Of a DNA stretch of 20,809 nucleotides, positions 4,982-20,596 are shown piece after piece. The DNA is from a virus: positions 1 through 20,809 of IMG/VR virus record IMGVR_UViG_3300014839_000050, one strand, 5' to 3'. The notes beneath the pieces were generated by a model. That model ran no database searches. It was not told where the DNA came from and saw only the letters and a list, made by a program, of their open reading frames with translations. Both the position numbers and the translations under genes were made by a program. The first letter of the stretch is position 1; each line of letters begins with the position of its first letter.

Positions 4982-5044
4982 ATTTACTCCATGATTAATT
5001 TTAAAAAACACAGTGATCCATTTGGTTCCTTGGGGATAGGGAAA
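4982..5044 (+). repeat. Direct repeat, copy A (63 nt, pairs with 5292-5354)
   Basis: It matches 5292-5354 at 61 of 63 positions, with the first 47 bases identical. It covers nine bases before the ATG and the first 18 codons. The bodies of the two genes are much more diverged. Confidence 0.9.
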
Positions 5045-5284
5045 GATCATATACTAAGTGATATATGCAAGGTTGGCAAAGATGGTAGACAAGAAATAAC
5101 TACTTGTAAATGGTTGAATAGAAATAAACAGGGTTATTTTTGTTTAAAAATATGTAATAATGAAAAACATGCAGAATTTTTACACTACGCCAATCATGGT
5201 AGTTATGAACTTAAAGGTGACTATTGTGATGGCATAGATGAGAACATAGATTTAACACCCATGAATATAATAGATGAAAGATGA
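4991..5284 (+). CDS. Hypothetical protein with GIGK N-terminal peptide, copy 1
   Basis: 97 residues from ATG 4991 to TGA 5284. The N-terminus MINFKKHSDPFGSLGIGK is the same peptide as in the next gene and resembles the segment NPLSSMGIGKTQII in the gene at 14555. The body contains CKVGKDG, TCKWL, GYFCLKIC and GDYCDGIDENI, all shared in weaker form with the next gene. This points to a small cysteine-containing domain of unknown function. No catalytic signature is recognised. The gene follows a terminator, and TATATTTAC ends three bases before its ATG, as at 2475. It is one half of a tandem duplication. Confidence 0.6.
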   Translation: MINFKKHSDPFGSLGIGKDHILSDICKVGKDGRQEITTCKWLNRNKQGYFCLKICNNEKHAEFLHYANHGSYELKGDYCDGIDENIDLTPMNIIDER

Positions 5285-5291
5285 CATCATA

Positions 5292-5354
5292 ATTTACTCC
5301 ATGATTAATTTTAAAAAACACAGTGATCCATTTGGTTCTTTAGGGATAGGGAAA
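5292..5354 (+). repeat. Direct repeat, copy B (63 nt, pairs with 4982-5044)
   Basis: Second copy of the 63-nt repeat, offset by 310 bases. Its upstream nine bases ATTTACTCC are identical to copy A, which supports ATG 5301 as the start of the second gene. Confidence 0.9.
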
Positions 5355-5570
5355 TCTCAAATTATACATAAATTTTGCAAAGTTGGTGATAATGGAGAAA
5401 AAAATACAATGACATGTAGATATTTGGCCAGATATCCAGAAGGGTACTTTTGTTTAAAACTATCAAAATATAAAGAAGCTATCGATACTATTAAAAATTA
5501 TCAGGTTGGTGATTATTGTGATGGGATAGATGAAAATATCAAATTAGCAGAAATAAATTATGAAAGATGA
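5301..5570 (+). CDS. Hypothetical protein with GIGK N-terminal peptide, copy 2
   Basis: 89 residues from ATG 5301 to TGA 5570. A longer form could begin at ATG 5274 inside the end of copy 1, but 5301 gives exactly the N-terminus MINFKKHSDPFGSLGIGK of copy 1 with the same preceding bases, so it is preferred. The body shares CKVG, TCRYL, GYFCLKL and GDYCDGIDENI with copy 1. The middle region differs in length and sequence, so the pair has diverged while the first 18 codons stayed almost identical. Its stop overlaps the start of the next gene (ATGA at 5567-5570), suggesting translational coupling. Confidence 0.6.
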   Translation: MINFKKHSDPFGSLGIGKSQIIHKFCKVGDNGEKNTMTCRYLARYPEGYFCLKLSKYKEAIDTIKNYQVGDYCDGIDENIKLAEINYER

Positions 5571-6669: not shown

Positions 6670-6679
6670 AAATAAATAT

Positions 6680-6841
6680 ATGAAGAAAAAATTAAAATCA
6701 TTTTTTGCATATCGTTTGTGGACCATTCTTTTATACATGGGTAGGAAAGATTTTGAGAAAGGAAGATTAGATAGATATCTATATATCTTATACAAATGGT
6801 ATATCTTAAGAGAAATGGTTACACTAAAAAATAAAAGATGA
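6680..6841 (+). CDS. Small basic protein, 53 aa
   Basis: ATG 6680 to TGA 6839-6841, 53 residues: MKKKLKSFFAYRLWTILLYM, then a charged segment GRKDFEKGRLDRYLYILYKW. It is rich in Tyr, Leu, Lys and Arg. The N-terminal stretch could be a short amphipathic or membrane-associated helix. The stop overlaps the next start (ATG at 6838), as for most genes of this chain, which supports it being real. The end of the preceding gene encodes a similar run (KIWYILKECVTD against KWYILREMVTLK), so it may derive from a partial duplication of that gene's 3' end. The function is unknown. Confidence 0.5.
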   Translation: MKKKLKSFFAYRLWTILLYMGRKDFEKGRLDRYLYILYKWYILREMVTLKNKR

Positions 6842-6846
6842 ATAAT
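6831..6846 (+). repeat. 16-nt junction repeat, copy 2
   Basis: Identical to 6069-6084. Its presence at two stop-start junctions is consistent with duplication of a junction during local gene duplication. Confidence 0.7.
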
Positions 6847-7104
6847 TACATTGTTATATCAGAGGACGAATTTCTTAAACAGTTTAAAGAAATAAATGAA
6901 GAAGTAGATTCTAAAGAAAAGACATATAAGCTTGATTTCTTAAAGAGACTTCTTTCAGAGTCACAGGAACTCAAACCCATAATCAAAGAGGCCTATGTCT
7001 ATTCCCAAGGAAATGCACAGGACAATGAAGCTGGGTTGGATAGGCTCATAGATTTTGATGATTATTGGAGATGGAAAACCGTAAAAGGATATTCGATAAG
7101 ATGA
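6838..7104 (+). CDS. Hypothetical protein, 88 aa
   Basis: ATG 6838 to TGA 7104. It is acidic in the first half (ISEDEFLKQFKEINEEVDSK), with a likely helix (LDFLKRLLSESQELKPIIKEA) and an aromatic end (DFDDYWRWKTVKGYSIR). No motif, signal or membrane segment is seen. It overlaps the previous small gene by 4 bases and the next gene's preferred start by 4 bases (ATGA at 7101). This indicates translation as one coupled unit with the KxDG nucleotidyltransferase-like gene. No family was recognised. Confidence 0.5.
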   Translation: MNNYIVISEDEFLKQFKEINEEVDSKEKTYKLDFLKRLLSESQELKPIIKEAYVYSQGNAQDNEAGLDRLIDFDDYWRWKTVKGYSIR

Positions 7105-8306
7105 AGAAGTTAAACGTGCATATTGATCACATTGAGGACCTTATCTTTTTACATGAGGGTGAATTTTTGACACATCCATATGAGACATTCAAGTTGCTTC
7201 TCCGGTCCATTGATAATGGTAAGATCTGTGATGGTATGAAATTATCTATAAAGATGGACGGCTCTCCAGCAGTCACATGCTTTAGTGACTTTGGTCCTGA
7301 TTTTCCGTTGCCCCTTGCGGTCTCGACAAAGTCGATGTTAAACAAGAGACCCATCACGTGTTTCACTGATGAGGATATAGACTATGTGTTTGGTGACAAA
7401 CCAGACATGTGTCATAAGTTAAAGCTGTTGTTACGGAATGTGCCAGCGTTAAATATACCACAGGGAGAGATATGGCAAGGGGATTTCTTGTTTGATGATA
7501 AGGGTCTATGTGAGGTGTTGATTGATGATAAGACATATGTGACCTTTCAACCGAACATCATCATATATGCTTTAGAAAAGGATGTTTTTCTAAGAGAGTA
7601 TGGTGATAGTAAGGATATCGGTGTAGTGTTTCATACCAAGTATGAAGGGAATTCTTTTGATGATCTACATATGAGTCATAGCAAGAAGCATGTTCCTGCG
7701 GTACATAATAATATATTGAGCCTGGACCCAACCATAGAGATCCTAGATCACAATTTTACAGTGAATGAAACCAACCACATCAATTATCTATTTGAAGAGT
7801 TATTGGAGTGCACCGATTTTTTGAAGAGTAGTGAAGAATATGTATTCATTGTTAAAAACAAATTGTTGGTCAAACTATTGGCTCTCTATCAGAACCATAT
7901 AATCAAGGAAAATATTGATGAGTTCATTCTTGAAGATTTCTATGAGTTTATGCATGATAGATACTTTAAAGATTACTATTCAAAGAAGACTGAGAATGGA
8001 AAGAACAAGACACTGGACGAATGGGTGGAACTGATCACTCTGATAAATTTGAATAGAGACATCATAAGATTCATGATGAATGTCTCAAAGAACATAGTCA
8101 GGTTGAAGAAGATTTTTCTTGATAAACTCAATGAGAATGTGACCGTGTTTGAGACATTCATCAAGATGAAGGATGGAACCATCAAAAGAACCATGCATGA
8201 GGGCTTTGTTGTCACATTGAATGATGCGTTGATAAAGCTTGTAGATAGGAGAGAGTTTAGTAGGTTAAACTTCTCAGATGATATAGACAGGGGTTGGAAA
8301 TGTTAA
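7101..8306 (+). CDS. KxDG nucleotidyltransferase/ligase-like phage protein (DUF6267-like)
   Basis: 401 residues from ATG 7101 to TAA 8306; in-frame alternatives are TTG 7065 and ATG 7071. ATG 7101 is preferred because it forms an ATGA overlap with the previous stop and gives MKKLNVHIDHIEDLIFLHEG, close to the 'HLEHxEDlxf' start of relatives. SIKMDGSPAV (K51, D53, G54) matches the nucleotidyl-acceptor motif KxDG of the ligase superfamily, followed by VSTKSMLNKRP, a QGEIWQGDFLF block and VTFQPNIIIYAL. The same block order occurs in a T4-like cyanophage family that I recall as DUF6267. Activity in that family is not established to my knowledge; covalent nucleotide transfer, perhaps as an RNA ligase or kinase, is inferred from motif I. 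The C-terminal half is helical with no recognised motif. Confidence 0.65.
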   Translation: MKKLNVHIDHIEDLIFLHEGEFLTHPYETFKLLLRSIDNGKICDGMKLSIKMDGSPAVTCFSDFGPDFPLPLAVSTKSMLNKRPITCFTDEDIDYVFGDKPDMCHKLKLLLRNVPALNIPQGEIWQGDFLFDDKGLCEVLIDDKTYVTFQPNIIIYALEKDVFLREYGDSKDIGVVFHTKYEGNSFDDLHMSHSKKHVPAVHNNILSLDPTIEILDHNFTVNETNHINYLFEELLECTDFLKSSEEYVFIVKNKLLVKLLALYQNHIIKENIDEFILEDFYEFMHDRYFKDYYSKKTENGKNKTLDEWVELITLINLNRDIIRFMMNVSKNIVRLKKIFLDKLNENVTVFETFIKMKDGTIKRTMHEGFVVTLNDALIKLVDRREFSRLNFSDDIDRGWKC

Positions 8307-8525: not shown

Positions 8526-9548
8526 ATGGCAAACGAAAAAAATGTAACAAGTTTAGGTTCAAGTGAAGATTTAGATGCACTATTTAACCCCAAGATAAGC
8601 ACAGGGGAATCAAACCAAAATCTGAATGAGTACTCACCGAGTGCCGACAAGGGTAAGAACAAGATCTATGATAGTATCATACGTTTTGTGACCTGGTGGG
8701 AGGACCCTAACCATTCCATCACTGAAAAGTGGGTGTGTTGGTTGGTTGATCCGGTGACACAACGTGGTCGCTTTGTTGATTGTCCATCGACAATTGGCAA
8801 ACCATCGCCGTTACAGGACATGTACTTCAAGTTAAAGAAGAATGAGTCTGTTACGATGCAAAAACAAGCTGATGTGTTTAGCCGTCGTCATAACTTTGCC
8901 TGTGTGATACAAGTCATCAAGGATGAAAACAACAAAGAGTTGGAAGGTAAACTTTTGGTGTGGAGGTTTGGTCAGAAGATCCATGAAAAGATCATGAGCG
9001 AACTAAAACCAGTCATTGGCGACCCACACAACCCATTCGATCTGTTAAACGGAAAGCTTTTCCAATTAAAGATCATAAAGGTTGCAGGCTTTAACAACTA
9101 TGACCAATCAAAGTTCATAGACAAGGTCATCACCCTATGCATTCCAAACGAACAGGGAAAACTGGTGCAGATAAACAACAAGACTGATAAGAAGATGGTC
9201 CTTGAATATCTAAAGACCAACACCCCAGACCTTAAGAAATATGGTTATAAGGAATGGGATCAGGAGATCTTTGACTATGTCAATCACGTCATAAATGCTG
9301 TGACCGGTCAATCCAATGTTAGTAGCAACTATTCATCTGTGATTAACCAGTCCAAACAATCAACGCCAACAGGCGCAAAGACTGGCAAGGCGCCACAATC
9401 TAACATAAGCGTCACCGATATCTCATTGGATGAATTGACCAGCGGCACAAGCTCATCTTTGGGCGAGGATTTTGAACTACCCTCGCTTCCCAACCTTGAT
9501 GATGTGGGATTGAGCGGTGATTTAGACGACGCTCTCGCTAATCTTTAG
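8526..9548 (+). CDS. 32: Single-stranded DNA-binding protein gp32-like
   Basis: 340 residues from ATG 8526 to TAG 9546-9548; T4 gp32 has 301. The core has YDSIIRFVTWWEDP, TEKWVCWLVDP, then FACVIQVIKDENNKELEGKL and LVWRFGQKIHEKI, matching T4's VVKDP...EGKVFKYRFGKKIWDKI. IIKVAGFNNYDQSKF matches T4 KQVSGFSNYDESKF. The C-terminus is acidic and flexible (SLGEDFELPSLPNLDDVGLS, ending DDALANL), like the T4 tail that binds partner proteins. The T4 zinc ligands (Cys-x9-Cys-x2-Cys) are absent: the region has only VDCPST. gp32 coats ssDNA during replication, recombination and repair and recruits UvsY, primase and helicase loader. It has one of the few clear Shine-Dalgarno sequences in the window, consistent with high expression, and the primase follows after 9 bases. 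Confidence 0.85.
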   Translation: MANEKNVTSLGSSEDLDALFNPKISTGESNQNLNEYSPSADKGKNKIYDSIIRFVTWWEDPNHSITEKWVCWLVDPVTQRGRFVDCPSTIGKPSPLQDMYFKLKKNESVTMQKQADVFSRRHNFACVIQVIKDENNKELEGKLLVWRFGQKIHEKIMSELKPVIGDPHNPFDLLNGKLFQLKIIKVAGFNNYDQSKFIDKVITLCIPNEQGKLVQINNKTDKKMVLEYLKTNTPDLKKYGYKEWDQEIFDYVNHVINAVTGQSNVSSNYSSVINQSKQSTPTGAKTGKAPQSNISVTDISLDELTSGTSSSLGEDFELPSLPNLDDVGLSGDLDDALANL

Positions 9549-9557
9549 GATTAAAAC

Positions 9558-10466
9558 ATGTTGCAGGAAATAGACATCAAAGAGGGTCTGAGCTTTGACT
9601 CTTCCCTCTTTGATTCAATTGATAGATCCATAAGCTTTGATGAATATAGGGACACCTTGATCACCCTGTTACAGCCCATATTGGAGAGAAGATTCTCTGG
9701 AAACTATCAGAAGCAAAAGATACTTAAGTATGTTGATAGACTAAATTTCTGTTGTCCCGTATGTGGGGACAGTGCGCACAGTAACTTTAAAAAACGTGGG
9801 AACTTCATCCTAGCTGGCAAATTCAAGAACTATTTCAAGTGTCATAACTGTAATGAGTTCAAAAGGATAGATCAGTTTTTCAAGGACTTCAGGGTGGAAC
9901 TCAACCTCGGTGTCATAAACTACATATCGAACAACCTTGTTGATTTTAGTCATGAGCAGAACCAGAAGTATGATCTGTCCATATTCTTGGATGTTGATAA
10001 CATAGAGAGGTATGCGATAGACAGAGAGGACCTAAAGAGATGCTTTGGGTTGGTTGAGGTCAAAGAGAGCCAGATATATGGTTATCTCATAGATAGACTC
10101 CAGTACAAGTCAAACAAGTTCTTATACAACCCCAAAAAAGATTATCTATTGGTGTTGAACCTAACAAAGACCGGAAGAGTCTTGGGCACACAACGTAGGA
10201 TGTTTAAGGGGGATAATAAATATTTGACCTACAAATTGAGCAAGTTGTATGAACTGATGGGAAACAGTGGGGTGGTGCCCGAGGAGATAGACTCATTGTC
10301 TGAAATATTCAACATATGTTTGATAGGTTTCAATAAAAGTGTCACGTGTTTTGAAGGACCACTTGATAGTTTCTTATTTTCTAACGCAATATCAAACACG
10401 GGCGCGAACAAGAGCATACCATTTGATATCGAACTGAATTTTTTCTTTTATGATGATATCACTTGA
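9558..10466 (+). CDS. 61: gp61-like DNA primase, cut short by an in-frame TGA
   Basis: 302 residues from ATG 9558 to the TGA at 10464-10466; the same frame continues to TAA 10662-10664. The N-terminal zinc-binding domain has CCPVCGDS (C66, C69) and KCHNC (C95, C98). A TOPRIM-type core follows, with TCFEGPLDSF (E266, D270) and FFYDDIT (D299, D300). T4 gp61 has 342 residues, close to the 368 codons of the uninterrupted frame. Primase makes RNA primers for lagging-strand synthesis with the gp41 helicase. The TGA falls right after the second acidic motif and removes about 66 C-terminal residues that are clearly coding. It may be a sequencing error, a nonsense mutation or readthrough; a lethal lesion would be unexpected in a required gene. 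gp32 lies just upstream. Confidence 0.78.
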   Translation: MLQEIDIKEGLSFDSSLFDSIDRSISFDEYRDTLITLLQPILERRFSGNYQKQKILKYVDRLNFCCPVCGDSAHSNFKKRGNFILAGKFKNYFKCHNCNEFKRIDQFFKDFRVELNLGVINYISNNLVDFSHEQNQKYDLSIFLDVDNIERYAIDREDLKRCFGLVEVKESQIYGYLIDRLQYKSNKFLYNPKKDYLLVLNLTKTGRVLGTQRRMFKGDNKYLTYKLSKLYELMGNSGVVPEEIDSLSEIFNICLIGFNKSVTCFEGPLDSFLFSNAISNTGANKSIPFDIELNFFFYDDIT

Positions 10467-10763: not shown

Positions 10764-11651
10764 ATGAAAAAACAAAAATTGTCTATAGAAAATTTGGTTT
10801 ATGAGTATGAACAATTACGTAACATTAGATTGATACGTATAACTTCAATGAAATGGATAGATGAAGACGGTAAGACTTTTAATGTTACTTTATTAAATGG
10901 TGTAAAAGAAATAAATAAGCAGTTTGAAAAATACAATGATGAATATTTTAAATACATAGATCTTAATGATAAAAAATATTACAATAAATACCTTAACATA
11001 CTGGATAAAGAATGGTATTATGTTGTTAAGATTGTAAATGATTTTGGAGATGAGATTTTAGAGTTTAAGAATATAAATATCAAGATAACCAAAGATAAGC
11101 TACGTAGTTTTTTTAATGACTGCCTTCATTACATGAACAAGATAATTTCTTTATATGAGAGTGATGAGAAACACCTTGAAATTCTATGTGGAGAGATTGA
11201 TGGGAAACACAACGATCTCTATGTCATAGCCAATGTCAAAGATTATAACCTCTTGCCTGATTTTAAAGGTGGAGAATGTACTGAACACATAATAGGAAGG
11301 ATGAACACTTTGCTTCATATCATGAATCAGATATCTAATAAAAAAATAACTAATATTAAACTCTTTAGGAAAGAGGTCTTTGCAAAGAGCAAGTTCATAA
11401 AGACACCACCTAAATTTAATACTGAGATATCCAAGTTTCAGAACAACAAATTATTTAAGAGTGAAGACTATATAAGTTTATTGAAGAAATATTGTGTTCT
11501 AAGTGTTGAAGATGAAGAGACATTAAGAGATTTCATTGATAATAATAAAATAAACATAGATAAAGAAACTGTAGTGAAAAATATCATAAAAAATAAAAAT
11601 TATATAAAAGAATTTATAAACAAGAATTATTTGAAGATATATGAAAACTAA
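10764..11651 (+). CDS. Hypothetical protein, about 295 aa
   Basis: From ATG 10764 (MKKQKLSIENLVYEYEQLRN) to TAA 11651; a GTG at 10737 would add nine residues but looks less likely. The protein is rich in Lys, Asn and Ile and its codons are more AT-rich than those of gp32 or primase. A central block (HLEILCGEIDGKHNDLYVIA) is the least low-complexity part. The C-terminal 60 residues are charged and helical. No catalytic motif, signal peptide or membrane segment is recognised. The end overlaps the next gene by 11 bases. The AT-rich codon use may mark a recent arrival. The function is unknown. Confidence 0.5.
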   Translation: MKKQKLSIENLVYEYEQLRNIRLIRITSMKWIDEDGKTFNVTLLNGVKEINKQFEKYNDEYFKYIDLNDKKYYNKYLNILDKEWYYVVKIVNDFGDEILEFKNINIKITKDKLRSFFNDCLHYMNKIISLYESDEKHLEILCGEIDGKHNDLYVIANVKDYNLLPDFKGGECTEHIIGRMNTLLHIMNQISNKKITNIKLFRKEVFAKSKFIKTPPKFNTEISKFQNNKLFKSEDYISLLKKYCVLSVEDEETLRDFIDNNKINIDKETVVKNIIKNKNYIKEFINKNYLKIYEN

Positions 11652-11862
11652 CCTTAAATTGTTATCCTGGGTTGCCTCTATCCTTTCACTATCTGGTGTC
11701 ATCCTCAACGCCCAACACATCATCTATTGTTGGCCAATATGGTGCATAGCTAATGTGTTCTGGATCTTCTGGGCCTATAAGAAGAGGGAGTGGTCTCAGT
11801 TCATATTATGGATCGCTTTCACACTGTCCAACCTCTATGGTTGGTGGTGTTGGTTACACTAA
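11641..11862 (+). CDS. Small membrane protein, PnuC-like fragment or phage homologue
   Basis: 73 residues from ATG 11641 to TAA 11862. Nearly the whole chain is hydrophobic: KLLSWVASILSLSGVIL, then YCWPIWCIANVFWIFWAY and QFILWIAFTLSNLYGWWCW, which predicts three transmembrane helices. Trp-rich segments separated by short basic loops (YKKREW) recall pieces of the PnuC nicotinamide riboside transporter family, and short proteins of this look occur in many large phages. It is much shorter than full PnuC (about 200-240 residues), so transport by the single protein is doubtful. Its start lies inside the end of the previous gene (11-base overlap). The membrane location is likely, the role is not known. 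Confidence 0.55.
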   Translation: MKTNLKLLSWVASILSLSGVILNAQHIIYCWPIWCIANVFWIFWAYKKREWSQFILWIAFTLSNLYGWWCWLH

Positions 11863-11883
11863 AATCACTAATATATAAACTAT

Positions 11884-12054
11884 ATGAAACACAATAAGAT
11901 TTCCACAAGCATCGATCATAAGTTCAACATAGACATTGATGATGGTAGTTTTTTTAGCTTTGATTTTAAAACTATCAAGAAAAAGATCAGTATAACTACT
12001 ATACACCTATTCAAAAAGAAGAACGATGGAAAACCAGTCCCAGGACTTTTTTAA
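11884..12054 (+). CDS. Small hypothetical protein, 56 aa
   Basis: ATG 11884 to TAA 12052-12054, 56 residues: MKHNKISTSIDHKFNIDIDD, a GSFFSFDFKTIKKK segment and a C-terminal HLFKKKNDGKPVPGLF. It overlaps the next gene's start by 29 bases in another frame, which is longer than other overlaps here, so it could end up being spurious. It is supported by its position, which fills an otherwise empty 163-base gap, and by an even amino-acid composition. No family or motif is recognised. Confidence 0.4.
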   Translation: MKHNKISTSIDHKFNIDIDDGSFFSFDFKTIKKKISITTIHLFKKKNDGKPVPGLF

Positions 12055-12502
12055 CATAAACCCAGATGTTCCGGAGAAGGAGTCTCTGGAAGATAGGTTC
12101 TTCAGGGAACGTCAGGAATGGAAGAACAAGGTCAAAGAGATGTCGCTCTCTTTGAAAAAAGTCTTTGATCTAACAAACCTATTGGCTGAGATATACACAG
12201 AGAGGCAGAAGGCATCTGAGTACTATCACTATCTGTTGTCATTGTTGGTGGGGTTAAATAAGAAATATAGAAACAAGTACGATGAACGCTGGGCTCACTA
12301 CACATTGAACTCAAAGGTAAGATATCCCAACGAGTCAACGAAGAGCAACAGGATCTTAGTGGATCTTGAAGATCTCGTTGAGAAGAGGGAACTGCTTAAC
12401 GTTCATGCAAAATCAATGGAGAGCACAGTCAAAACTATAGATAATATGATATACGGCATACAAGCAAGGATAAAGATAGAGGACATAAACAGGGGGAAAT
12501 AG
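12026..12502 (+). CDS. uvsY: UvsY-like recombination mediator (probable)
   Basis: 158 residues from ATG 12026 to TAG 12500-12502; T4 UvsY has 137. The chain is almost wholly helical and highly charged, with three long helices (about residues 28-60, 62-85 and 112-155). The C-terminal end GIQARIKIEDINRGK parallels the end of T4 UvsY, where an I-K/I-x-x-I/M-R-x-F segment precedes the terminal GK. It lies two genes before UvsW, and T4 uvsY and uvsW are neighbours. UvsY loads the UvsX recombinase onto gp32-coated ssDNA. There is no catalytic motif to test, so the call rests on fold-like pattern, size and neighbourhood. A generic coiled-coil protein is the alternative. Confidence 0.5.
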   Translation: MENQSQDFFNINPDVPEKESLEDRFFRERQEWKNKVKEMSLSLKKVFDLTNLLAEIYTERQKASEYYHYLLSLLVGLNKKYRNKYDERWAHYTLNSKVRYPNESTKSNRILVDLEDLVEKRELLNVHAKSMESTVKTIDNMIYGIQARIKIEDINRGK

Positions 12503-12504
12503 GC

Positions 12505-12987
12505 ATGTTAATCAAGACTCGTCATATTATTGTTATCTTGATTTTTATGTTATCTGTTTCTTGTGTACCCTACACCAGGACAAGCAACATCTACGTGAAA
12601 GACATGAAACAGATAGACATCATATGTATGCAACGTATGTTGTTTGTGAACGTCACATTAAATGATAAGACATGTCTTTTGCTGATAGATACCGGTGCTA
12701 GCAGATCACTGTTAAACATAAACAAGTGTAACAAATATGGGTTTGGTTACATCAAATCAGAAAAGATAAATTATATAGGCATAGGTGGGGTCCAAGATAT
12801 CTACGTTATCTATGATTATAAGATAGATGATTTCTTTATTTCAATGTTGGGTGCAGACTTGGAAGATGTAACAAGATACTTCAATGAAGACAACATAGAT
12901 ATAATTGGCATAATGGGATCTGATTTCTTGAATGATAACAATGCCATCATAGATTATCAAAATTTAAAATTATACGTTAAGAGATGA
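12505..12987 (+). CDS. Retropepsin-like aspartic protease lipoprotein
   Basis: 160 residues from ATG 12505 to TGA 12985-12987. The N-terminus has basic residues, a hydrophobic core (HIIVILIFMLSVSC) and a lipobox-like SVSC with the Cys at about 20. LLLIDTGASRSLLN carries the catalytic DTGA motif of clan AA aspartic proteases (D62). IIGIMGSDFLNDNNAIIDY is the conserved second block (IxGxxGxdFLxxxxaxiDy) of retropepsin-like proteins common in Bacteroidota. One DTG per chain implies a homodimer, as in retroviral proteases. Export and lipid anchoring would put it in the envelope, so it is an unusual gene between UvsY-like and UvsW. Its stop overlaps the UvsW start (ATGA at 12984). It may protect the infected cell or process a surface protein; neither is shown. 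Confidence 0.7.
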   Translation: MLIKTRHIIVILIFMLSVSCVPYTRTSNIYVKDMKQIDIICMQRMLFVNVTLNDKTCLLLIDTGASRSLLNINKCNKYGFGYIKSEKINYIGIGGVQDIYVIYDYKIDDFFISMLGADLEDVTRYFNEDNIDIIGIMGSDFLNDNNAIIDYQNLKLYVKR

Positions 12988-14525
12988 AATTTAGAGTGGA
13001 TGCATCAAAGAACTTTTTGATATTGACAGATTGTACCTCTTTAGAGTATGATCAGTTGGTCTACTCATTCACTAAACTTGTTGATAACTATTACATTATA
13101 AAAAGAAAGGTCCCATATTGGGATGGCAAAATATCATTCTTTGATAGTAAATTTAGTCGTGTGCCGATTTCTCTCTGGCGCGAGGTCCAGAAGCTATGTA
13201 AGGAGTTTCATTTCTCGCTTGATATAGATGGGATAGAGGATCTGTATGATAAGGATTTTGATGATGTAAGTTTCACAGAGTGGGTCAACACATACTTTGA
13301 GGAAGCTGAGGATTTAACACCAAGAGACTATCAGATAGAAGCTTGCATAAGATTATTGAAGTATAGAAAGTGCACAAGTGAGATCGCCACATCTGGTGGC
13401 AAGACACTCGTGGCGTTCATGATATTCAAGTATCTGTTTAGTAGAGGTACCATTAAGAAACTTTTATACATAGCGCCTAACATCAACCTGGTGTCTCAAC
13501 CTGAGGAAAAATTCTATGAGTATGAAGATAGGTGTAACAAGAAACCAAATTGGAAATCTGTCTGCGTATATAGTGGAGCAAAAAAGGACAAGGATGTAAA
13601 ACCAACAAACATCACATTTGGTACGTATCAATCTCTAACAAAAAAGGATCTAATTTTTTTCCGAGATTTTGATATGGTGATAGTTGATGAAACGCATCAT
13701 GCTGCAAATAACTCAATTAAGAAAATACTTGTGAATTGTCAAAATGCAAAGTATAAATTGGGTTTAACAGGCACACTCCCAAAGGAGGGTTCATTAAACT
13801 CATTCACCATACAATCATACCTTGGGCCATGTGTGTATGAGATAAAATCATGTGATCTGATATCTTCTGGAAAAGCAACACCGATAAATATCATAGGAAT
13901 AGAATTGGATTATCTTGATGTTGGCATGAAGAAGAAGCTCTATGACTTAAGAAATGTTTCGGCGGATGAGAAGGATGGAGTCAAACTGCTTAATCTGGAG
14001 AAAGATATAGTCAGAGATAATGATAAACGTTTAAAATATGTATGTGAGACCATAAACAAAGCATCAAAGAACTCGTTGGTCCTATTTTCAGACATCAAAA
14101 ATGAATATGGTAGGAAGGTGTACAACTGGTTGAGAGAAAACTCAGAGAAAACCATATATTATATAGATGGGTCGACAGATAACAAGAACAGAGACTATTA
14201 TAAGGAACAGATGGAAAAGAACAATGATGTGATCATTGTTGCATCAGTAGGAACCTTCGGGGAAGGGATCGATATATCAAATGTGTTTTCACTATTCATA
14301 ATTGAGAGCCACAAGAGTGAAAATATAATACGCCAAATGTTGGGCAGAGGCATGCGGTTGATGGAGGGCAAAGAGAAGGTCAATGTCATAGATTTCATCG
14401 ACAATTTTGAGTATGGGACAAATAAGTATCAGAAGATAAATTATTTACTTAGACATGCCAAGGCGCGCCAACAGATCTACAAGGATCGTGGTTTTCCTTA
14501 CAAAAGATATAAACAATTGTTATGA
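12984..14525 (+). CDS. uvsW: UvsW-like superfamily 2 DNA/RNA helicase
   Basis: 513 residues from ATG 12984 to TGA 14523-14525, close to the T4 protein. A UvsW-type N-terminal domain (about 1-100) precedes the two helicase domains. Visible motifs are the Q-like RDYQIEA (114-120), Walker A ATSGGKT (135-141), motif II VDETHHA with DETH at 235-238, motif III LTGT (261-264), and in the second domain YYIDGSTDNKNRD, VASVGTFGEGIDI and the arginine-finger motif VI RQMLGRGMRL. UvsW unwinds branched DNA and R-loops; in T4 it shifts replication from origin-based to recombination-dependent initiation. It is the last gene of the recombination block and is coupled to the preceding lipoprotein by an ATGA overlap. 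A late box follows at once, so the late block starts here. Confidence 0.88.
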   Translation: MKFRVDASKNFLILTDCTSLEYDQLVYSFTKLVDNYYIIKRKVPYWDGKISFFDSKFSRVPISLWREVQKLCKEFHFSLDIDGIEDLYDKDFDDVSFTEWVNTYFEEAEDLTPRDYQIEACIRLLKYRKCTSEIATSGGKTLVAFMIFKYLFSRGTIKKLLYIAPNINLVSQPEEKFYEYEDRCNKKPNWKSVCVYSGAKKDKDVKPTNITFGTYQSLTKKDLIFFRDFDMVIVDETHHAANNSIKKILVNCQNAKYKLGLTGTLPKEGSLNSFTIQSYLGPCVYEIKSCDLISSGKATPINIIGIELDYLDVGMKKKLYDLRNVSADEKDGVKLLNLEKDIVRDNDKRLKYVCETINKASKNSLVLFSDIKNEYGRKVYNWLRENSEKTIYYIDGSTDNKNRDYYKEQMEKNNDVIIVASVGTFGEGIDISNVFSLFIIESHKSENIIRQMLGRGMRLMEGKEKVNVIDFIDNFEYGTNKYQKINYLLRHAKARQQIYKDRGFPYKRYKQLL

Positions 14526-14554: not shown

Positions 14555-15013
14555 TTGAAAAAATTAGTTTTTGAGAGCCTCAATGAGATGAACTTTGAGA
14601 GAGTTAATAAAAATCCCTTATCCTCCATGGGTATAGGAAAAACACAGATCATTAAAGACTAGTTGGATGAGATGGGTGTTGAGAATTATGTGATAAATGA
14701 TGATTATAGCATAGATGTACATAAAAATGAAGTTAATTTAAATTACAAAAATTTAACAGAGTTTCCTGATTATATAAAATTTAATCGTATATTAAATGGA
14801 TATTTTTCATGTAAACATAATTTATTAACTTCACTTAGAGGATGCCCTAAATATACAACGGGTGATTTTAATTGTGCAAATAATCTATTAAGTTCTTTAG
14901 AAGGATGCCCAATAGAGGTTTATAACTCTTTTATTTGTTATGGTAATAGACTTACTTTTGGTAATGAATATATCAGAAAATTATGCGCCGTGAAACAATC
15001 TATAATTAATTGA
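14555..15013 (+). pseudogene. Tagged LRR-like protein interrupted by an in-frame TAG
   Basis: The frame runs from TTG 14555 to TGA 15011-15013 (153 codons) but is cut by TAG at 14660-14662. The intact paralogue at 16012 reads IIKDWLDDMG where this one reads IIKD-stop-LDEMG, so TGG (Trp) has become TAG. The first part has the tag KKLVFESLNEMNFE and then NPLSSMGIGKTQIIKD. After the stop comes NYVINDDYSIDVH, a repeat of LTSLRGCP and SSLEGCP units separated by FxCxxN blocks, the short leucine-rich pattern found in many phage proteins. Reinitiation at TTG 14663 would give 116 residues. A late box lies upstream and its distance supports the TTG start. It could equally be a base-call error. Confidence 0.7.
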
Positions 15014-15045
15014 TTATTTTTATAAACTGGTGAAAAAACAACATG

Positions 15046-15058
15046 AATATATAAAATA
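15046..15058 (+). promoter_or_regulatory. Late-type promoter box
   Basis: AATATATAAAATA differs from the exact late boxes by one extra A. TATAAAATA spans 15050-15058, beginning 22 bases before the ATG at 15072. Confidence 0.45.
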
Positions 15059-15071
15059 AAATAACTCTATT

Positions 15072-15815
15072 ATGAGAAAATTTAATGACATCTATAAGAA
15101 TAAACTGAATGAGTCTGAAGCTATCCAAGAGACCAAAGTGTTGGGTTCCTTTAAACAGGTCTACAACACTCTTCTAGAAACATATAAGATAGTTGATTTC
15201 TATTCTTTGGATGAAAAGACTCAGGTTGCATTCCTGACTGAACTCAACGAGTATTGGTCTGAAGATCTTGGCATAAGCACCAAGGGCAAAGATTTCTTGG
15301 AGAGCAAGAGTTCAATGCTGACTGAGGGTTCAACAGTTTCACAGAAAAGAAATTACATAAAGTCTAAACTGTCAAATGTCATAAATGAGACCCTGAGACA
15401 GACTGAGATGAAATACAAGATATATGACATCATAGATGAGGTCTACAAACAAATAGATGCCAAGAACATAGATGATGTGTTACAGCCAAGGGAGATATCC
15501 AACGTGGTGAAGGAATCATTCAGTGAAGTGTTGGGAAAATTCATCAATGGGATGAACAAGGAACTCAATGAGAGCTCAGTGTCCAATGAAGGTGCCAAAC
15601 TATACGAGAAACAATACAGTGAAGAGAAACGTAAAGAATTGGCTCATAAGGGTTACGCGATGTCTGATGGAGCATTCCCAATAGCTAATAAGAGTGATCT
15701 TAAGAATGCCATCCAAAGTTTTGGAAGAGCTAAAAACAAGGATCTTGCAAAGAAACACATAGTGAAACGCGCTAAGGCTCTGGGAGCCTCAGATCTCATA
15801 CCAGAGAAGTGGTAA
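15072..15815 (+). CDS. Probable head-associated protein with N-terminal tag and conserved C-terminal domain
   Basis: 247 residues from ATG 15072 to TAA 15815. The start MRKFNDIYKNKLNESEA resembles the short tag shared by other proteins of this block. The middle (about 20-180) is helical and charged. The C-terminal 65 residues (KRKELAHKGYAMSDGAFPIA, NKSDLKNAIQSFGRAKNKD, KKHIVKRAKALGASDLIPEK) match a small conserved domain found at the ends of many phage proteins, with the pattern 'R+xLAxxGxAmpDGsFPIxNxxDLxNAIxxxGRAk'. This domain is often fused to head or protease-related proteins, but its role is not settled. A late box lies upstream. A virion or scaffold function is inferred. Confidence 0.6.
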   Translation: MRKFNDIYKNKLNESEAIQETKVLGSFKQVYNTLLETYKIVDFYSLDEKTQVAFLTELNEYWSEDLGISTKGKDFLESKSSMLTEGSTVSQKRNYIKSKLSNVINETLRQTEMKYKIYDIIDEVYKQIDAKNIDDVLQPREISNVVKESFSEVLGKFINGMNKELNESSVSNEGAKLYEKQYSEEKRKELAHKGYAMSDGAFPIANKSDLKNAIQSFGRAKNKDLAKKHIVKRAKALGASDLIPEKW

Positions 15816-15831
15816 AATAAAAGATATAGAT

Positions 15832-15951
15832 ATGCCAAGGTTGTTTGGTAAGGTGATGACCAACAAGAACATCCAAAGAGGAAATAATAACACATCAAAC
15901 CCAAATCAAAAGATAAGGATTAAGTTTGGGAAGTGTAACTGCGGAAAATAA
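15832..15951 (+). CDS. Small basic protein, 39 aa
   Basis: ATG 15832 to TAA 15949-15951, 39 residues: MPRLFGKVMTNKNIQRGNNN, then TSNPNQKIRIKFGKCNCGK. It is strongly basic, with almost no acidic residues and a CNC motif at the end. It lies 16 bases after the tagged gene and is followed at once by a terminator, which supports transcription with the upstream gene. A small nucleic-acid-binding or virion protein is possible. At this length it may still be a chance frame. Confidence 0.45.
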   Translation: MPRLFGKVMTNKNIQRGNNNTSNPNQKIRIKFGKCNCGK

Positions 15952-15956
15952 AATAG

Positions 15957-15980
15957 AAAGGAGTCTTAAGACTCCTTTTT
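15957..15980 (+). terminator. Rho-independent terminator
   Basis: AAAGGAGTC (15957-15965) and GACTCCTTT (15970-15978) form a perfect 9-bp stem with a TTAA loop, followed by a T run. The next late box lies directly downstream. Confidence 0.8.
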
Positions 15981-15985
15981 TCTTT

Positions 15986-15998
15986 AATATATAAAACA
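15986..15998 (+). promoter_or_regulatory. Late-type promoter box
   Basis: AATATATAAAACA, with TATAAAACA at 15990-15998, lies just after the terminator and begins 22 bases before ATG 16012. Confidence 0.45.
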
Positions 15999-16011
15999 AA
16001 GATGACTTTTG

Positions 16012-16467
16012 ATGAGCAAGTTTGTTTGTGAAAACCTGAACGCATATCTGAATTTCAATAAAGATGCAGGTATTTCATTGGACTCCATGAACATAGGTCG
16101 TAGAAAGATAATCAAAGACTGGTTGGATGATATGGGTGTTACGCATTACATGATTAATAATGATCTGACCATAGATGTGCATAGATATGTTGATCTGGAT
16201 TACAAAAACATAATGGAGTTTCCAGAATACATAACATTCAATAGGGTTGATGGAATGTTTGCATGTGACAATAATGGTTTAACATCTTTACGAGGCTGTC
16301 CTGTGTTTGTTGAGGGAGGTTTCTATTGTCAGGATAACCAATTGATTTCTTTGGAAGGATGCCCAAAAGAAACAAGAGGTAGTTTTTGGTGTTCAGGAAA
16401 CAAGATAAAATTTACAATAGATGATGTTATAAAACTATGTAAAGTTGATAAAGAAATAATTGTTTAG
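16012..16467 (+). CDS. Tagged LRR-like protein, intact paralogue of the gene at 14555
   Basis: 151 residues from ATG 16012 to TAG 16465-16467; a TTG three bases earlier is a possible but less likely start. The tag MSKFVCENLNAYLNFNK is followed by ISLDSMNIGRRKIIKDWLDD, then HYMINNDLTIDVHRY, VDLDYKNIMEFPEY and LRR-like units FACDNNGLTSLRGCP, FYCQDNQLISLEGCP and FWCSGNKIKF. The units match 'FxCxxNxLxSLxGCP', a short repeat expected to form a solenoid that may mediate protein binding. It is about half identical to the broken copy at 14555, which is separated by two genes. A late box and a terminator frame it. The function is unknown; the tag suggests packaging into the head. Confidence 0.65.
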   Translation: MSKFVCENLNAYLNFNKDAGISLDSMNIGRRKIIKDWLDDMGVTHYMINNDLTIDVHRYVDLDYKNIMEFPEYITFNRVDGMFACDNNGLTSLRGCPVFVEGGFYCQDNQLISLEGCPKETRGSFWCSGNKIKFTIDDVIKLCKVDKEIIV

Positions 16468-16484
16468 AAATATAATAAGTAGAT

Positions 16485-16540
16485 GATATTTTAGGTTTGG
16501 TTGTTATAAAACTCTACCAACCCAGTTAAATATCTTTTAT
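16485..16540 (+). terminator. Long imperfect hairpin terminator
   Basis: GATATTT (16485-16491) pairs with AAATATC (16528-16534), and GGTTTGG inside it pairs imperfectly with CCAACC (16517-16522), leaving a loop of about 16 bases. A T-rich tract TTTTATTTTAT follows. It lies between the LRR-like gene and the next late box. Confidence 0.5.
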
Positions 16541-16548
16541 TTTATGAT

Positions 16549-16561
16549 GATATATAAAATA
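16549..16561 (+). promoter_or_regulatory. Late-type promoter box
   Basis: GATATATAAAATA, with TATAAAATA at 16553-16561, lies 26 bases before the ATG at 16588. Confidence 0.45.
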
Positions 16562-16587
16562 AATTGATAAAAATTAATGTTAAAATT

Positions 16588-18366
16588 ATGAAAAAGAATT
16601 ATGTATCGATAAACTTGGATCAGTATCTTAATGAGTCCAAGACCGTTGTGTTAAAGAGAAAATATGGTGAACGTCCAACAGTTTCTGTTGGAACCCAAGC
16701 TCCATTACGTGATAGAGTGCTTTCCTATGTTGCAGAGAGCGTTAGAGTGACCAGGACTGATCTAAAGAACTACATCATTGGACTGTCTGAGGGCAAAGCG
16801 AGATCTTCTGCTGCAGTCATGTTCATGAAACGGAACTCACAGTTCTTCATCTCAGAGAGCAAGAATGGTGAAGTATATTATAAGCTATCGGACCTTGGAA
16901 AGAGGATTGTTGGTAGGTTCCAGAAGATTGACAAAGTCATCACTGAAGCTAAAAAGGAGAAGGGTGGAAAAAAACTCATCGAGAGAATGGTTGAGGATTG
17001 GGACATCGATGGGAAAATTGATGATGAAGGTAAAGATGTAGAAGATGATGATCTATATAAAGGAAGAGAAGAAGACACTGAAGATAGACCAGACATGCAT
17101 GGTGAAAGGGGAATGAGAGGGATGAAAAGGATATTGAATACACCCAAGAATATTGAAGGTGTTGAAGATGCTCCCTATGATATGGCCGATGTTGATGATA
17201 TTGAAGATGCCAGAAGCATGGACAGACGTGACAGTAGAGAAGATAGAGGTGAAAGGGACGCTGAACCAGATAGAGCAAGATACATCTCAGACATGGGTGG
17301 TGAGGATGACTTTGTAAAGAGAGATTTTGATCCAGAAGAAAATGAAAGAGGTGGTCGTGGTGGAGACTTTGATCAGGAACAAGATTTTAGAGAGTTTCAG
17401 GGACCAAAAGAGGACATGGAAGGTGCTGAAGACATAGAAGATGAAGATCATGAGATGGCTGAAACACCAGAAGATGAAGAGATTGAACACAAGAGAGGAC
17501 CAAGAGAAAGAGATGATAGAAAGTTTGAAGAGGGTGAGGGCCTAGAAGAACCAAGGGAACCATTCAGAAAGTATGACTTCATGCATAAGGGAAGGACTGG
17601 TATCTATGATATGGACGAAAACATGAATGAATCACTTCAATCAAACCAAGAAACCTTTGATATAAATGAGGATGAGAACCCAGAATCTTTTAATCTTGAG
17701 ACAGATGATAAAGAAACTGCTGAAGAGACTCCAGGAGAAACTGAAACACCTGAAGAACAGGAAACAGAGGACAAAGAAGAGGTTGAGAGTGGTGAAGAGA
17801 AGGTTGAGATCACAGAGTTCATACTCACGGTCGATGATCCAGATGAAGCCATTGCTGAACTTGCAGAGAGAGGCATCACAGCAGAACGAGTTCCCGTGGA
17901 ACCAGTTGAAGCTGAGGGAACAGAAGAGACTCCAGAAGAGACCCCCGAGGAAACAACAGAATCAGAAACAGGTGAAGAGGGAACAACAGAGAAACTCACC
18001 GAAGATGAGAACACTGCACCTGTAGATGACTTGGATTTGGATGGTGGAGCAGAAACTGCTGGCACTGAAGAAACACCAGAGACTGGCGAAGGGGATCAGA
18101 CAGAGGAACAACCCGAAGAGACTGAAACACAGTACAAAGAGGACCAGATAAAGGTCCCAGCATCATCCTGGCCAGAACTACGCAAATGGTTAGAAGAAGA
18201 TAAAGGATTAGATGTGGGTGATATGTTCGGAGGATCTATAGAAATGGAAGAAAATGGATTAACAAAAACAGATGATGATATAAATTTTGATGATGTTGAA
18301 GAAGATGATGAAACTACAATAAAAAAAGATGAAGATGAAGAAAATAAAGAAGAAAATAAAGAATAA
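16588..18366 (+). CDS. Large, very acidic tagged protein, probable head/scaffold-associated
   Basis: 592 residues from ATG 16588 to TAA 18364-18366; a TTG at 16564 would add eight residues. The start MKKNYVSINLDQYLNESK matches the tag of its neighbours. A winged-helix-like region follows (about 28-105: LRDRVLSYVAESVRVTRTDL, then ISESKNGEVYYKLSDLGKR). From about residue 130 to the end, Asp and Glu dominate, with low-complexity runs such as EETPEETPEETTE. Two ordered islands lie in the C-terminal part: EFILTVDDPDEAIAELAERG and VPASSWPELRKWLEEDKGLD. Such charge suits a scaffold, an internal head protein or a DNA mimic; the late promoter and tag favour the first two. No known family was recognised. 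Confidence 0.6.
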   Translation: MKKNYVSINLDQYLNESKTVVLKRKYGERPTVSVGTQAPLRDRVLSYVAESVRVTRTDLKNYIIGLSEGKARSSAAVMFMKRNSQFFISESKNGEVYYKLSDLGKRIVGRFQKIDKVITEAKKEKGGKKLIERMVEDWDIDGKIDDEGKDVEDDDLYKGREEDTEDRPDMHGERGMRGMKRILNTPKNIEGVEDAPYDMADVDDIEDARSMDRRDSREDRGERDAEPDRARYISDMGGEDDFVKRDFDPEENERGGRGGDFDQEQDFREFQGPKEDMEGAEDIEDEDHEMAETPEDEEIEHKRGPRERDDRKFEEGEGLEEPREPFRKYDFMHKGRTGIYDMDENMNESLQSNQETFDINEDENPESFNLETDDKETAEETPGETETPEEQETEDKEEVESGEEKVEITEFILTVDDPDEAIAELAERGITAERVPVEPVEAEGTEETPEETPEETTESETGEEGTTEKLTEDENTAPVDDLDLDGGAETAGTEETPETGEGDQTEEQPEETETQYKEDQIKVPASSWPELRKWLEEDKGLDVGDMFGGSIEMEENGLTKTDDDINFDDVEEDDETTIKKDEDEENKEENKE

Positions 18367-18414
18367 TATAAAACTTCTTGTAAAAAATTTAATATAATTA
18401 TTAAACAATTTTAT

Positions 18415-19452
18415 ATGGATGGAAAGTTTCATTTTGTTTATATCACAACCAATTTAATAAACAAAATGCAGTATGTTGGTGATCATTCTACGAATAACAT
18501 AAATGATAAATATTTAGGCAGTGGTAGACCTTATTTTCAAAGAGCATTAAAAGAATATGGCAAAGAAAACTTTAAAAGAGAAATATTAGAGTTTTTTCTA
18601 ACAAAACAAGAAGCTTTCGATGCCCAAGAAAAATACATTATACAATATAATACTTTAGTTCCTAATGGTTATAATTTAAGTCCAAAAGGAGGGCACCATT
18701 GTCCAAACTCTTGGTCTGAAGAATCAAAGAAAAAATTAAGTATATCTAAAAAAGGAAAAAGATTAGGTATATCACCAATAAATAAAGGTAAAACTTATTT
18801 GGAATATTTCATAGAAATATATGGTGATGAGGAAGGTTTAAAAATACGTAATGAATATATTGAAAGTATAAGTAAATCATTAACTGGGAAAAAACAATCT
18901 AAAGAAACAATAGAAAAAAGAAATAATGCAAACACTGGTAAAAAAAGAACATCACAACAAATAGAAAATATTAAAAATGGTAAAGCCAAAGCTAAAGAAT
19001 TAAAAGATTTAGAAAATCCTAAAACTAATATAATAAAAAATAAAAAAGAATCTAAACCTAAAATTACAAGAAAAGGAAAAACAATGTTACAATATTTAAC
19101 AGAATTATATGGTGAAGAAGAAGCATTGAATAGATATGAAAAATATATTATTAAAATTAGTAAATCATTAACTGGAAAAAAAAGATCGGAAGAATCAAAG
19201 AAAAGACAGAGTAAAAGTACAAAGGGTGTTCCTGCATCTGAAGAAGCAAAAGAAAATATGAGGAAAGCTAAAGTTAAACAAAAAGAAAAACGAAATGGTG
19301 TAAAAGAAATAAGAAAACCTTTGTCCAAAGAGACAAAAGAAAAAATAAGTAAATCTTTATTAGGTCATGAAGTGTCTAAAGAAAGTATTGAAAAAACAAA
19401 AGTTACTAAGTTAAAAAATCGTTTGAAAAAAGAAGAGAAAGAAGAAAAATAA
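18415..19452 (+). mobile_element. Free-standing GIY-YIG homing endonuclease gene with NUMOD3-like repeats
   Basis: 345 residues from ATG 18415 to TAA 19450-19452. The GIY-YIG nuclease domain covers residues 1-95: VYI (8-10), YVG (20-22), KYLGSG, FQRAL with the conserved Arg (R43), EAFDAQEKYII with the catalytic Glu candidate (E72) and NGYNL. NUMOD3-like DNA-binding units follow (SEESKKKLSISKKGKR, SKETIEKRNNANTGKK, SEESKKRQSKSTKG, SKETKEKISKSLLG). A longer unit is duplicated: NKGKTYLEYFIEIYGDEEG (about 123-141) and RKGKTMLQYLTELYGEEEA (about 219-237), each leading to ISKSLTGKK. Such enzymes cut unoccupied alleles and spread their own gene by repair. The gene is far more A-rich than its late neighbours, a sign of transfer. 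It sits between two tagged late genes. Confidence 0.88.
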
Positions 19453-19463
19453 GAACAATTTTG

Positions 19464-20258
19464 ATGAAGATTGTTAAAGAATATCTAAATGAAGACGAGA
19501 AAGTATTGAAATCTCGTCTTCTAGAATTTAATAAGATAAAAAAGCTTACGCCTGCCGATTTAAACATTGGAGTTGCTCAGATGATCTTTGATAAAACATC
19601 AGGATCATGGGGAGATGGTAAATGTGCATATTCCTATGATATATATGGTTCAGAAAACTGGAAAGAGATAATCGTATGGTTGATCAACCAGGGTTATACA
19701 CCACATGAAACTGAAGAAGTCTTAAGAAGCAAACTCATGCGATGGGCTGGTGATGATGCTTCAAAAAATGAAAATGAAAAAGTAAATCTTGATGATTTTC
19801 TTAAATTTAATTCACAGTTATTTAAGGGTCAGACGCAGGTAGATTATTTCTTAGATGAGTATAATATAAGAGACAAAAGAGTGGATGAAGACATGGGTGA
19901 AGTGTGTTCTCCAATGTCTACACTTAGCAACACTCCAGGTATGGGTAACGCAGTTCCAGCTTCACAGGCAACTGGAGGCATTGGATCTGGTGATAACTGG
20001 GGGACCAACATAAAGACTTACACGCAGGGTGGAAAGATCAAAAAGAAGAAAAGAAAGAAAAGAGCGGTGGATGAAGAGAACATTAACCCATTCGATAAAT
20101 TGGGAACAGCCATGGCAAAGAAACTTAGGGTCCCTATGGTTTTTAAAAAGGGAAAGAACCAAACCATCCGTCAAAAGACCTTTGAACACAACATCAAGAC
20201 GCTTGATGATTATATGAAAGTTAACGAGAATGATGATAAAAATAAAAAATTAATATGA
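19464..20258 (+). CDS. Tagged virion-type protein, about 264 aa
   Basis: ATG 19464 to TGA 20256-20258; the TTG at 19461 just before it is less likely. MKIVKEYLNEDEKVLKSR opens like the tags of the neighbouring proteins. The N-terminal half contains TSGSWGDGKCAYSYDIYG and IIVWLINQGYTPHETEEVLR. The middle has SPMSTLSNTPGMGNAVPAS followed by GIGSGDNWG; a 'NTPGMGNxxPxS...GSGDxW' segment recurs in phage structural proteins. A basic stretch (GGKIKKKKRKKRAVDE) comes next, and VPMVFKKGKNQTIRQKTFEHN near the end. The basic part could bind DNA. It follows the homing endonuclease by 11 bases and overlaps the next gene by 4. Head association is inferred from the tag and neighbourhood; no named family was recognised. 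Confidence 0.58.
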   Translation: MKIVKEYLNEDEKVLKSRLLEFNKIKKLTPADLNIGVAQMIFDKTSGSWGDGKCAYSYDIYGSENWKEIIVWLINQGYTPHETEEVLRSKLMRWAGDDASKNENEKVNLDDFLKFNSQLFKGQTQVDYFLDEYNIRDKRVDEDMGEVCSPMSTLSNTPGMGNAVPASQATGGIGSGDNWGTNIKTYTQGGKIKKKKRKKRAVDEENINPFDKLGTAMAKKLRVPMVFKKGKNQTIRQKTFEHNIKTLDDYMKVNENDDKNKKLI

Positions 20259-20596
20259 AAAACTATGTATGTGAATCTTTAGGTGACTATCTTAATGATA
20301 AGAAAAATAAAAGTGGTCACAAAAAACTAAACGAAGGAGTGTCAAAATCGTTCGAGGAAGCCATGCTTAAGTTAGATGATGTCATATCCAAAGATGATGA
20401 ACTACATGACATATATTCTAGCATCTTAGGTGATGATACGTCAAACAATGAAAAGATCATCAAGATTGAACAATTTTTGGAGAACGCTGAAAATCTAGAG
20501 ATCTTGAACTACTATCTACCAAATAAAAGAAATCTAAGGGACTTTGCAGAATATATCGTGAACACCGAGATGGAATATGTCACCGCGAATTTTTAA
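20255..20596 (+). CDS. Small tagged helical protein, 113 aa
   Basis: ATG 20255 to TAA 20594-20596. The N-terminus MKNYVCESLGDYLND is one of the clearest examples of the shared tag, very close to MSKFVCENLNAYLN at 16012. After it come HKKLNEGVSKSFEEAMLKLD and several acidic helices (DELHDIYSSILGDDTSNNEK, IEQFLENAENLEILNYY). No catalytic motif or membrane segment is seen. It overlaps the previous gene by 4 bases (ATGA) and is followed by a strong terminator, so it ends this transcription unit. A small internal head protein, comparable with T4 IP proteins, is a reasonable inference from the tag and size. Confidence 0.58.
   Translation: MKNYVCESLGDYLNDKKNKSGHKKLNEGVSKSFEEAMLKLDDVISKDDELHDIYSSILGDDTSNNEKIIKIEQFLENAENLEILNYYLPNKRNLRDFAEYIVNTEMEYVTANF

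Follow-up and report, generated by a model that had tools for sequence, protein, structure and literature searches.

Genes at the locus

We analyzed a 20,809-nucleotide stretch of viral DNA (hereafter the window), positions 1 to 20,809 of IMG/VR record IMGVR_UViG_3300014839_000050, for a group of genes whose proteins begin with a similar short peptide, or tag, which we consider a probable capsid-targeting propeptide. The 20.8-kb window is a separate virus record. A sequence-only reading had placed six such genes at 14555-20596, with unrelated bodies behind one common N-terminal form that resembles the leader of T4 internal head proteins. The features are listed in Table 1. Five of the six genes (15072, 16012, 16588, 19464, and 20255) stand as positioned, each with an ATG start, while 14555 is not intact: because of its TTG start and in-frame TAG, it is probably a broken gene. 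The TAG replaces a Trp of the paralogue 16012 (IIKD(stop)LDEMGV vs IIKDWLDDMGV). Readthrough rescuing 14555 was considered and found unlikely, with TAG serving as the stop of 7 of the 29 called open reading frames (ORFs) of the window. Genes 14555 and 16012 have related bodies, both leucine-rich repeat (LRR)-like with "SLxGCP" repeats, and since the two are paralogues there are five unrelated bodies rather than six. Similarly, the single common form holds in part, as a second motif of the FER..DP..SLGIGK type was observed in 14555, 16012, 4991, and 5274. The first two carry degenerate versions of both tag parts; the last two, which lie outside the range of the earlier reading, carry the second part alone.

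Table 1. Tagged genes of the window and two neighboring genes
Feature	Coordinates	Strand	Details
Tag gene, probably broken	14555..15013	+	TTG start; KKLVFE/SLNE/MNFERVNKNPLSSMGIGKTQIIKD; TAG 14660-14662; LRR-like body from 14663
Tagged 247-aa protein	15072..15815	+	N-terminus MRKFNDIYKNKLNE/S
Tagged LRR-like 151-aa protein	16012..16467	+	MSKFVCE/NLNAYLNFNKDAGISLDSMNIG; tag and FERG-like motif
Tagged 592-aa protein	16588..18366	+	MKKNYVSINLDQYLNE/S; predicted winged-helix domain (~residues 38-109); very acidic tail
Tagged 264-aa protein	19464..20258	+	MKIVKE/YLNE/DE; spacing equals T4 MKTYQEFIAE; GSGDxWG segment and basic stretches in body
Tagged helical 113-aa protein	20255..20596	+	MKNYVCE/SLGDYLND
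97-aa protein, second (FERG-type) motif alone at N-terminus	4991..5284	+	MINFKKHSDPFGSLGIGK; duplicated relative adjoins
98-aa duplicate of 4991	5274..5570	+	Same second motif
UvsW helicase	12984..14525	+	Syntenic anchor; tagged genes 3' of uvsW in window, G001, LR756500, LR756501, and G053
GIY-YIG homing endonuclease	18415..19452	+	Inserted within tagged cluster; no tag; outside the system

The likeness among the N-termini is real. Within residues 5-18, [LIV]xE was found in 6/6 named genes, against 7/22 other plus-strand genes (p=0.0046) and 21/85 internal-Met windows (p=4e-4). The strict form cleaved by the T4 protease gp21, [LI]xE, occurs in 4/6 named genes and 4/22 others (p=0.04), and LNE or YLN, a form picked post hoc, in 6/6 vs 1/22 (p=2e-5). 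The exact T4 spacing was observed in 19464 alone (V4, Y7), with 16588 shifted by 6. Enrichment within the window alone is modest evidence, and the question was therefore taken to relatives.

Tag sets of huge relatives

No near relative of the window was found among 50,697 named phages. The best relatives of its UvsW belong to Prevotella Lak megaphages and to LR756500.1, an uncultured phage of 462 kb (~40% identity). We read the genomes of LR756501 (735 kb), LR756500, Lak-B5 (540 of 543.5 kb), PAU, and PTm1 and 160 kb of LR756502; T4, phage K, and crAss001 served as comparisons. Motif discovery by expectation maximization was run on the N-termini with the start-Met column excluded and shuffled N-termini as controls. 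A distinct tag emerged in each of five genomes and in the window clade: MIK[NK][FY]xx[FY][IL]NE in LR756501, MKYIKEYEEF[LI]NE in LR756500, MKHLKx[FY]ES[FY] in LR756502, MKT[LI][ST][KQ]LYE[AS] in PAU, KKxLYES[IL] in Lak-B5, and FERGxDPK in the window clade. Motif log-likelihoods were 233-524, compared to 128-154 for the shuffled N-termini.

Held-out genes, scored with one gene per body family, gave median matches of 42 in LR756501 (range 33-58, with at most 3.8 expected), 14 in LR756500, 27 in LR756502, 12 in PAU, 12 in Lak-B5, and 8 in the window clade, with at most 4 expected in each. The bodies behind the tags are unrelated, with 27 tagged proteins in 27 body families in the available part of LR756502, 18 in 18 in PAU, and 73 in 49 in LR756501. 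N-terminal tags are enriched in the held-out genes of relatives, on unrelated bodies. An expression for Lak-B5, written after its motif had been seen, matched 17/571 N-termini and 2/2,523 internal windows. Held-out motif discovery found no tag set in T4, PTm1, phage K, or crAss001, although T4 has too few tagged genes for this approach. A signal of 10 matches in phage K, from a first cross-validation, was ascribed to genes duplicated in the terminal repeats and was gone with one gene per body family.

These results bear on whether the tags are simply what AT-rich phages produce by favoring N-terminal helices rich in Lys, aromatic residues, and Glu. The 7/22 other window genes with [LIV]xE fit that explanation, yet the internal-Met and shuffled controls, held-out scoring, and body deduplication all oppose it, and neither of the AT-rich control phages (phage K and crAss001) shows a signal. 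A search of IMG/VR is a further control: MKxYxxF[LIM]NE stands at a clear N-terminus in at least 100 ORFs from at least 82 contigs and at least 62 body families, whereas an equally degenerate permuted pattern yielded 55 stretches, 12 N-terminal ORFs, and 3 families. Chance is already disfavored because the enrichment persists in held-out genes of independent families, and we give it almost no weight.

A two-part tag in sister contigs

The full local form stands at the N-termini of proteins of sister contigs, reading M-K-x-V-x-E-x-L-[ND]-E followed by FERGxDPKxALGIG; several proteins of the contig L002 start with MKIIKESLDFERGQDPKKALGVGK or similar. When IMG/VR was scanned with a degenerate DNA pattern for the FERG part, seven stretches were found, all on small virus contigs. 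On these contigs, a shorter FERG pattern gave 20 matches in the expected orientation, compared to 0 for its backward reading. With a looser form, 18/20 matches in the window and sister contigs fell within the first 25 residues (p=4e-16), and [LIVMF]xE lies immediately upstream of the FERG part in 16/20 cases. The FERG-type motif is the dominant tag in the sister contigs. No match to the FERG pattern was found in 84,980 bacterial and archaeal genomes. A tblastn search of the named phages with the consensus tag gave no match, the query being too short.

The remaining 2/20 matches are second copies inside two proteins of contig G002 (L021), at 6534-7235 and 8959-9693, that carry the FERG tag at the N-terminus and again at ~residues 125-150. 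They look as if two tagged units had been fused, separable by cutting.

Likeness to the T4 propeptide

Targeting in T4 needs no more than the first ten residues of IPIII; in MKTYQEFIAE, residues 4 and 7 serve targeting and residues 8 and 10 processing, and gp21 cleaves after (L/I)xE (PMC9026906). In the relatives, a fixed core, [hydrophobic]xx[FYW][LIVM]xE, matched 67/979 N-termini of LR756501, compared to 1.0% of internal-Met windows (p=2e-21). The same core matched three genes in T4, two of which start MKTYQEFIAE, which we take to be the IPII/IPIII leader. Hydrophobic or aromatic residues occupy the equivalents of T4 positions 4 and 7 in LR756501, LR756500, the contig G053, and the IMG/VR matches. 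In LR756501, LR756500, LR756502, and PAU, the tag Glu is followed by A/S/G/N in 0.60-0.89 of cases, vs 0.21-0.26 elsewhere, at a position that the expressions used for these four phages leave free. For LR756501, the values are 0.61 vs 0.21 (p=1e-12).

The shared starts could instead be recombination modules, short homologies that shuffle cargo genes, with the peptide having no sorting role. Tandem arrays of tagged genes with near-identical starts (L235, L254, L262, and L306) and the persistence of starts while bodies turn over are what such modules would produce. We consider this improbable, given that conservation is at the protein level, with a separate form per lineage, and falls in the targeting and protease columns, including the A/S/G/N past the cut. 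A recombination role and a sorting role are in any case compatible.

The capsid-targeting reading draws further support from G053 (L277, 171.8 kb), which carries gp32, primase, and UvsW genes and then genes starting MKRLKKFINQS, MRSLGQIILEE, MKSYKSFVNEA, MKSYKRFINKS, and MKSYKSFLNER, in that order. The MKSYKSFLNER gene is a homologue of window gene 16588 (41% over 96 residues, E=1e-22). As judged from this homology, one family bears two tags, the T4 form (MKSYKSFLNE) on the G053 homologue and MKKNYVSINLDQYLNES on 16588. Tagged genes also lie 3' of uvsW in LR756500 and LR756501, and T4 uvsW is near inh, the gene of the gp21 inhibitor.

Prohead protease of the S77 (gp21) type

Genes of S77 prohead proteases were found in complete relatives; none lies within the window fragment, where head genes are absent. 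S77 matches were observed in LR756500 (adjoining gp23), Lak-B5, PAU, PTm1, and G053, while the matches in LR756501 and LR756502 fell below the cut-off. A gp23-type capsid gene is present in LR756500, LR756501, LR756502, and Lak-B5; the window and sister fragments gave none. By alignment to T4 H85 and S140, both catalytic positions are retained in the S77 copies of LR756500, LR756501, PTm1, and PAU.

As a contig-level correlate, S77 made no difference among the IMG/VR matches listed, occurring on 15/47 tag-pattern and 6/26 permuted-pattern contigs. For contigs of at least 100 kb, 11/15 tag-pattern and 0/4 permuted-pattern contigs carried S77, which is at most suggestive, and many of the positives have a gp21 close to that of T4.

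We also observed short second copies of the S77 family, alike in G005 (19438-19938), LR756501 (11314-11850), and LR756500 (154840-155238). These have GELGYP or GELYNP at the catalytic His region (GELNHP in T4), and in the G005 copy the aligned Ser is missing as well.

Proposed role of the tags

At a probability of roughly 0.74, we read the tags as capsid-targeting propeptides of the T4 kind that would be cleaved by the prohead protease. Their position, the unrelated bodies, the T4 columns, the bias past the cut, the G053 homologue, and the proteases of relatives point this way, and the T4-like proposal of the sequence-only reading is partly supported, its "six bodies" and "one form" being inexact. 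The tag peptide would bind the prohead scaffold core, and the protein would be enclosed as the shell forms. The prohead protease would cut after the tag Glu, and the freed cargo would stay with the DNA and enter the host by injection. In the window clade, the cut would leave the second motif, FERGxDPKxALGIG, on the mature protein. We infer packaging in the head, cleavage, and ejection from the gene sequences.

Several observations weigh against this assignment. In two of the six window tags, the site is VxE rather than the strict (L/I)xE, and the L002 homologue of 19464 has no tag. Judging by the internal control, some of the LR756501 and LR756500 matches will be due to chance (~1% of N-termini). 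The head genes of the window phage fall outside the 20.8-kb fragment, and the sole S77 match on a FERG-tag contig (G005 19438-19938) is a short copy without both aligned catalytic positions, probably not the active enzyme. Finally, PTm1 has S77, but held-out motif discovery did not detect a tag set there.

This last case, in which S77 occurs possibly without a tag set, would also suit an explanation in which the tags direct proteins elsewhere, such as to the tail, the membrane, or a replication compartment, and the likeness to T4 is convergent. The same can be said of the FERG motif, which lacks a T4 counterpart, and of the tagged genes of G002, G004, G003, and G006, which sit among apparent tail or baseplate genes. 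We regard another destination as unlikely, though the least so of the alternatives. The conserved columns are the four positions important in the T4 propeptide, A/S/G/N is in excess past the cut in four phages, the homologue of 16588 bears the T4 form, and tags are absent from most core tail and replication genes.

Cargo behind the tags

Tagged proteins matched PPK2, DeoC aldolase, methyltransferase, radical SAM, Ig, SET, PNK3P, phosphoribosyltransferase, and VWA/DUF2201 families, mostly with one protein each. LRR families were matched by five tagged proteins, and the majority of tagged proteins had no family match. Cargo of the LRR-like kind was observed in both the window and LR756500, and the tandem tagged repeat family of G003 and G006 looks similar. 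In the window, residues 180-247 of 15072 match a domain that adjoins or is fused to actinophage capsid maturation proteases and portals. In the predicted structure of 16588, a flexible stretch of 37 residues is followed by a winged-helix-like domain (mean predicted local distance difference test score 61) and lastly the acidic tail; the winged-helix match is weak, with a best Foldseek E of 2.6e-3. N-terminal extensions of ribosomal protein S21 in huge phages were considered as tags and dropped, as the S21 frames of LR756501 and LR756502 are only 66-70 aa. Among the called proteins of LR756501.1, the peptide DPYGEExW occurs 104 times (42 near C-termini and 21 near N-termini), in 49 distinct 18-base encodings, and in 0/5 other phage records checked.

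More tentatively, and at somewhat less than even odds, huge phages may run an open address system, in which a lineage-specific tag, fitted to the scaffold and protease of that lineage, marks tens of unrelated proteins that are preloaded in the head and injected. These might include LRR proteins, polyphosphate kinase, methyltransferase, radical SAM and SET domain proteins, and others, with FERGxDPKxALGIG of the window clade kept on the mature protein as an additional signal for sorting or ejection. The injected proteins of huge phages are mostly unknown, as most genes are unannotated and few phages are cultured. If the tags are indeed propeptides for capsid targeting, part of the injected protein set becomes predictable from sequence, also in the 735-kb phage and the Lak megaphages. 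Sphingomonas phage PAU is a cultured tag-bearing relative, and its tagged genes cluster at 100-120 kb around the S77 gene.

Gene neighborhood

The window genes include a gp32-like ssDNA-binding protein, a primase, and the UvsW helicase. The gene order gp32-primase-UvsW-15072 family-16588 family-19464 family is common to the window and the sister contig L002/G001 (25.6 kb), and the 15072 homologue after uvsW in L002 shares 48% identity. The GIY-YIG gene 18415 is the sole untagged gene within 14555-20596. In G001, uvsW is split at 11133-13908 (L019) by an insert, apparently an intein or self-splicing element, that contains a homing-nuclease-like ORF. A small protein conserved between the window (12505-12987) and G005 (7319-7780) has a lipoprotein-like signal and a motif, LLIDTG[AS]S, like that of retropepsin-type aspartic proteases.

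Comparison with known systems

The kind of system is known from T4; its scale, the tags specific to each lineage, and the additional FERG motif do not seem to have been described. In a literature search of partial coverage, which does not prove novelty, the T4 and phiKZ-type cases were the only published precedents found. As in T4 (IPI/IPII/IPIII and Alt, with gp21), a short N-terminal peptide stands on unrelated proteins, with the order hydrophobic/aromatic-x-x-aromatic-[IL]-x-E, a candidate cleavage site of the (L/I)xE form, and S77 in complete relatives; MKTYQEFIAE is recovered by the same expression as the LR756501 tags. In contrast to the three internal proteins and Alt of T4, the huge relatives have tens of tagged proteins per genome, the tags are lineage-specific, and the window clade adds FERG..LGIG behind the predicted cut. 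The giant phages phiKZ and SPN3US also have S77-type proteases, and N-terminal propeptides are removed from their ejected head proteins (PMC5694885); several of those propeptides exceed 100 residues, whereas the tags described here have 10-20 residues and a T4-like sequence. Among basic proteins of T-even relatives with leaders like the capsid-targeting sequence, varied cargo likewise stands behind similar leaders, and a review proposes that sequence as a means of recruiting proteins into heads (PMC9026906). Those proteins belong to close relatives of T4, while the tags described here occur in 219-735-kb phages of other lineages.

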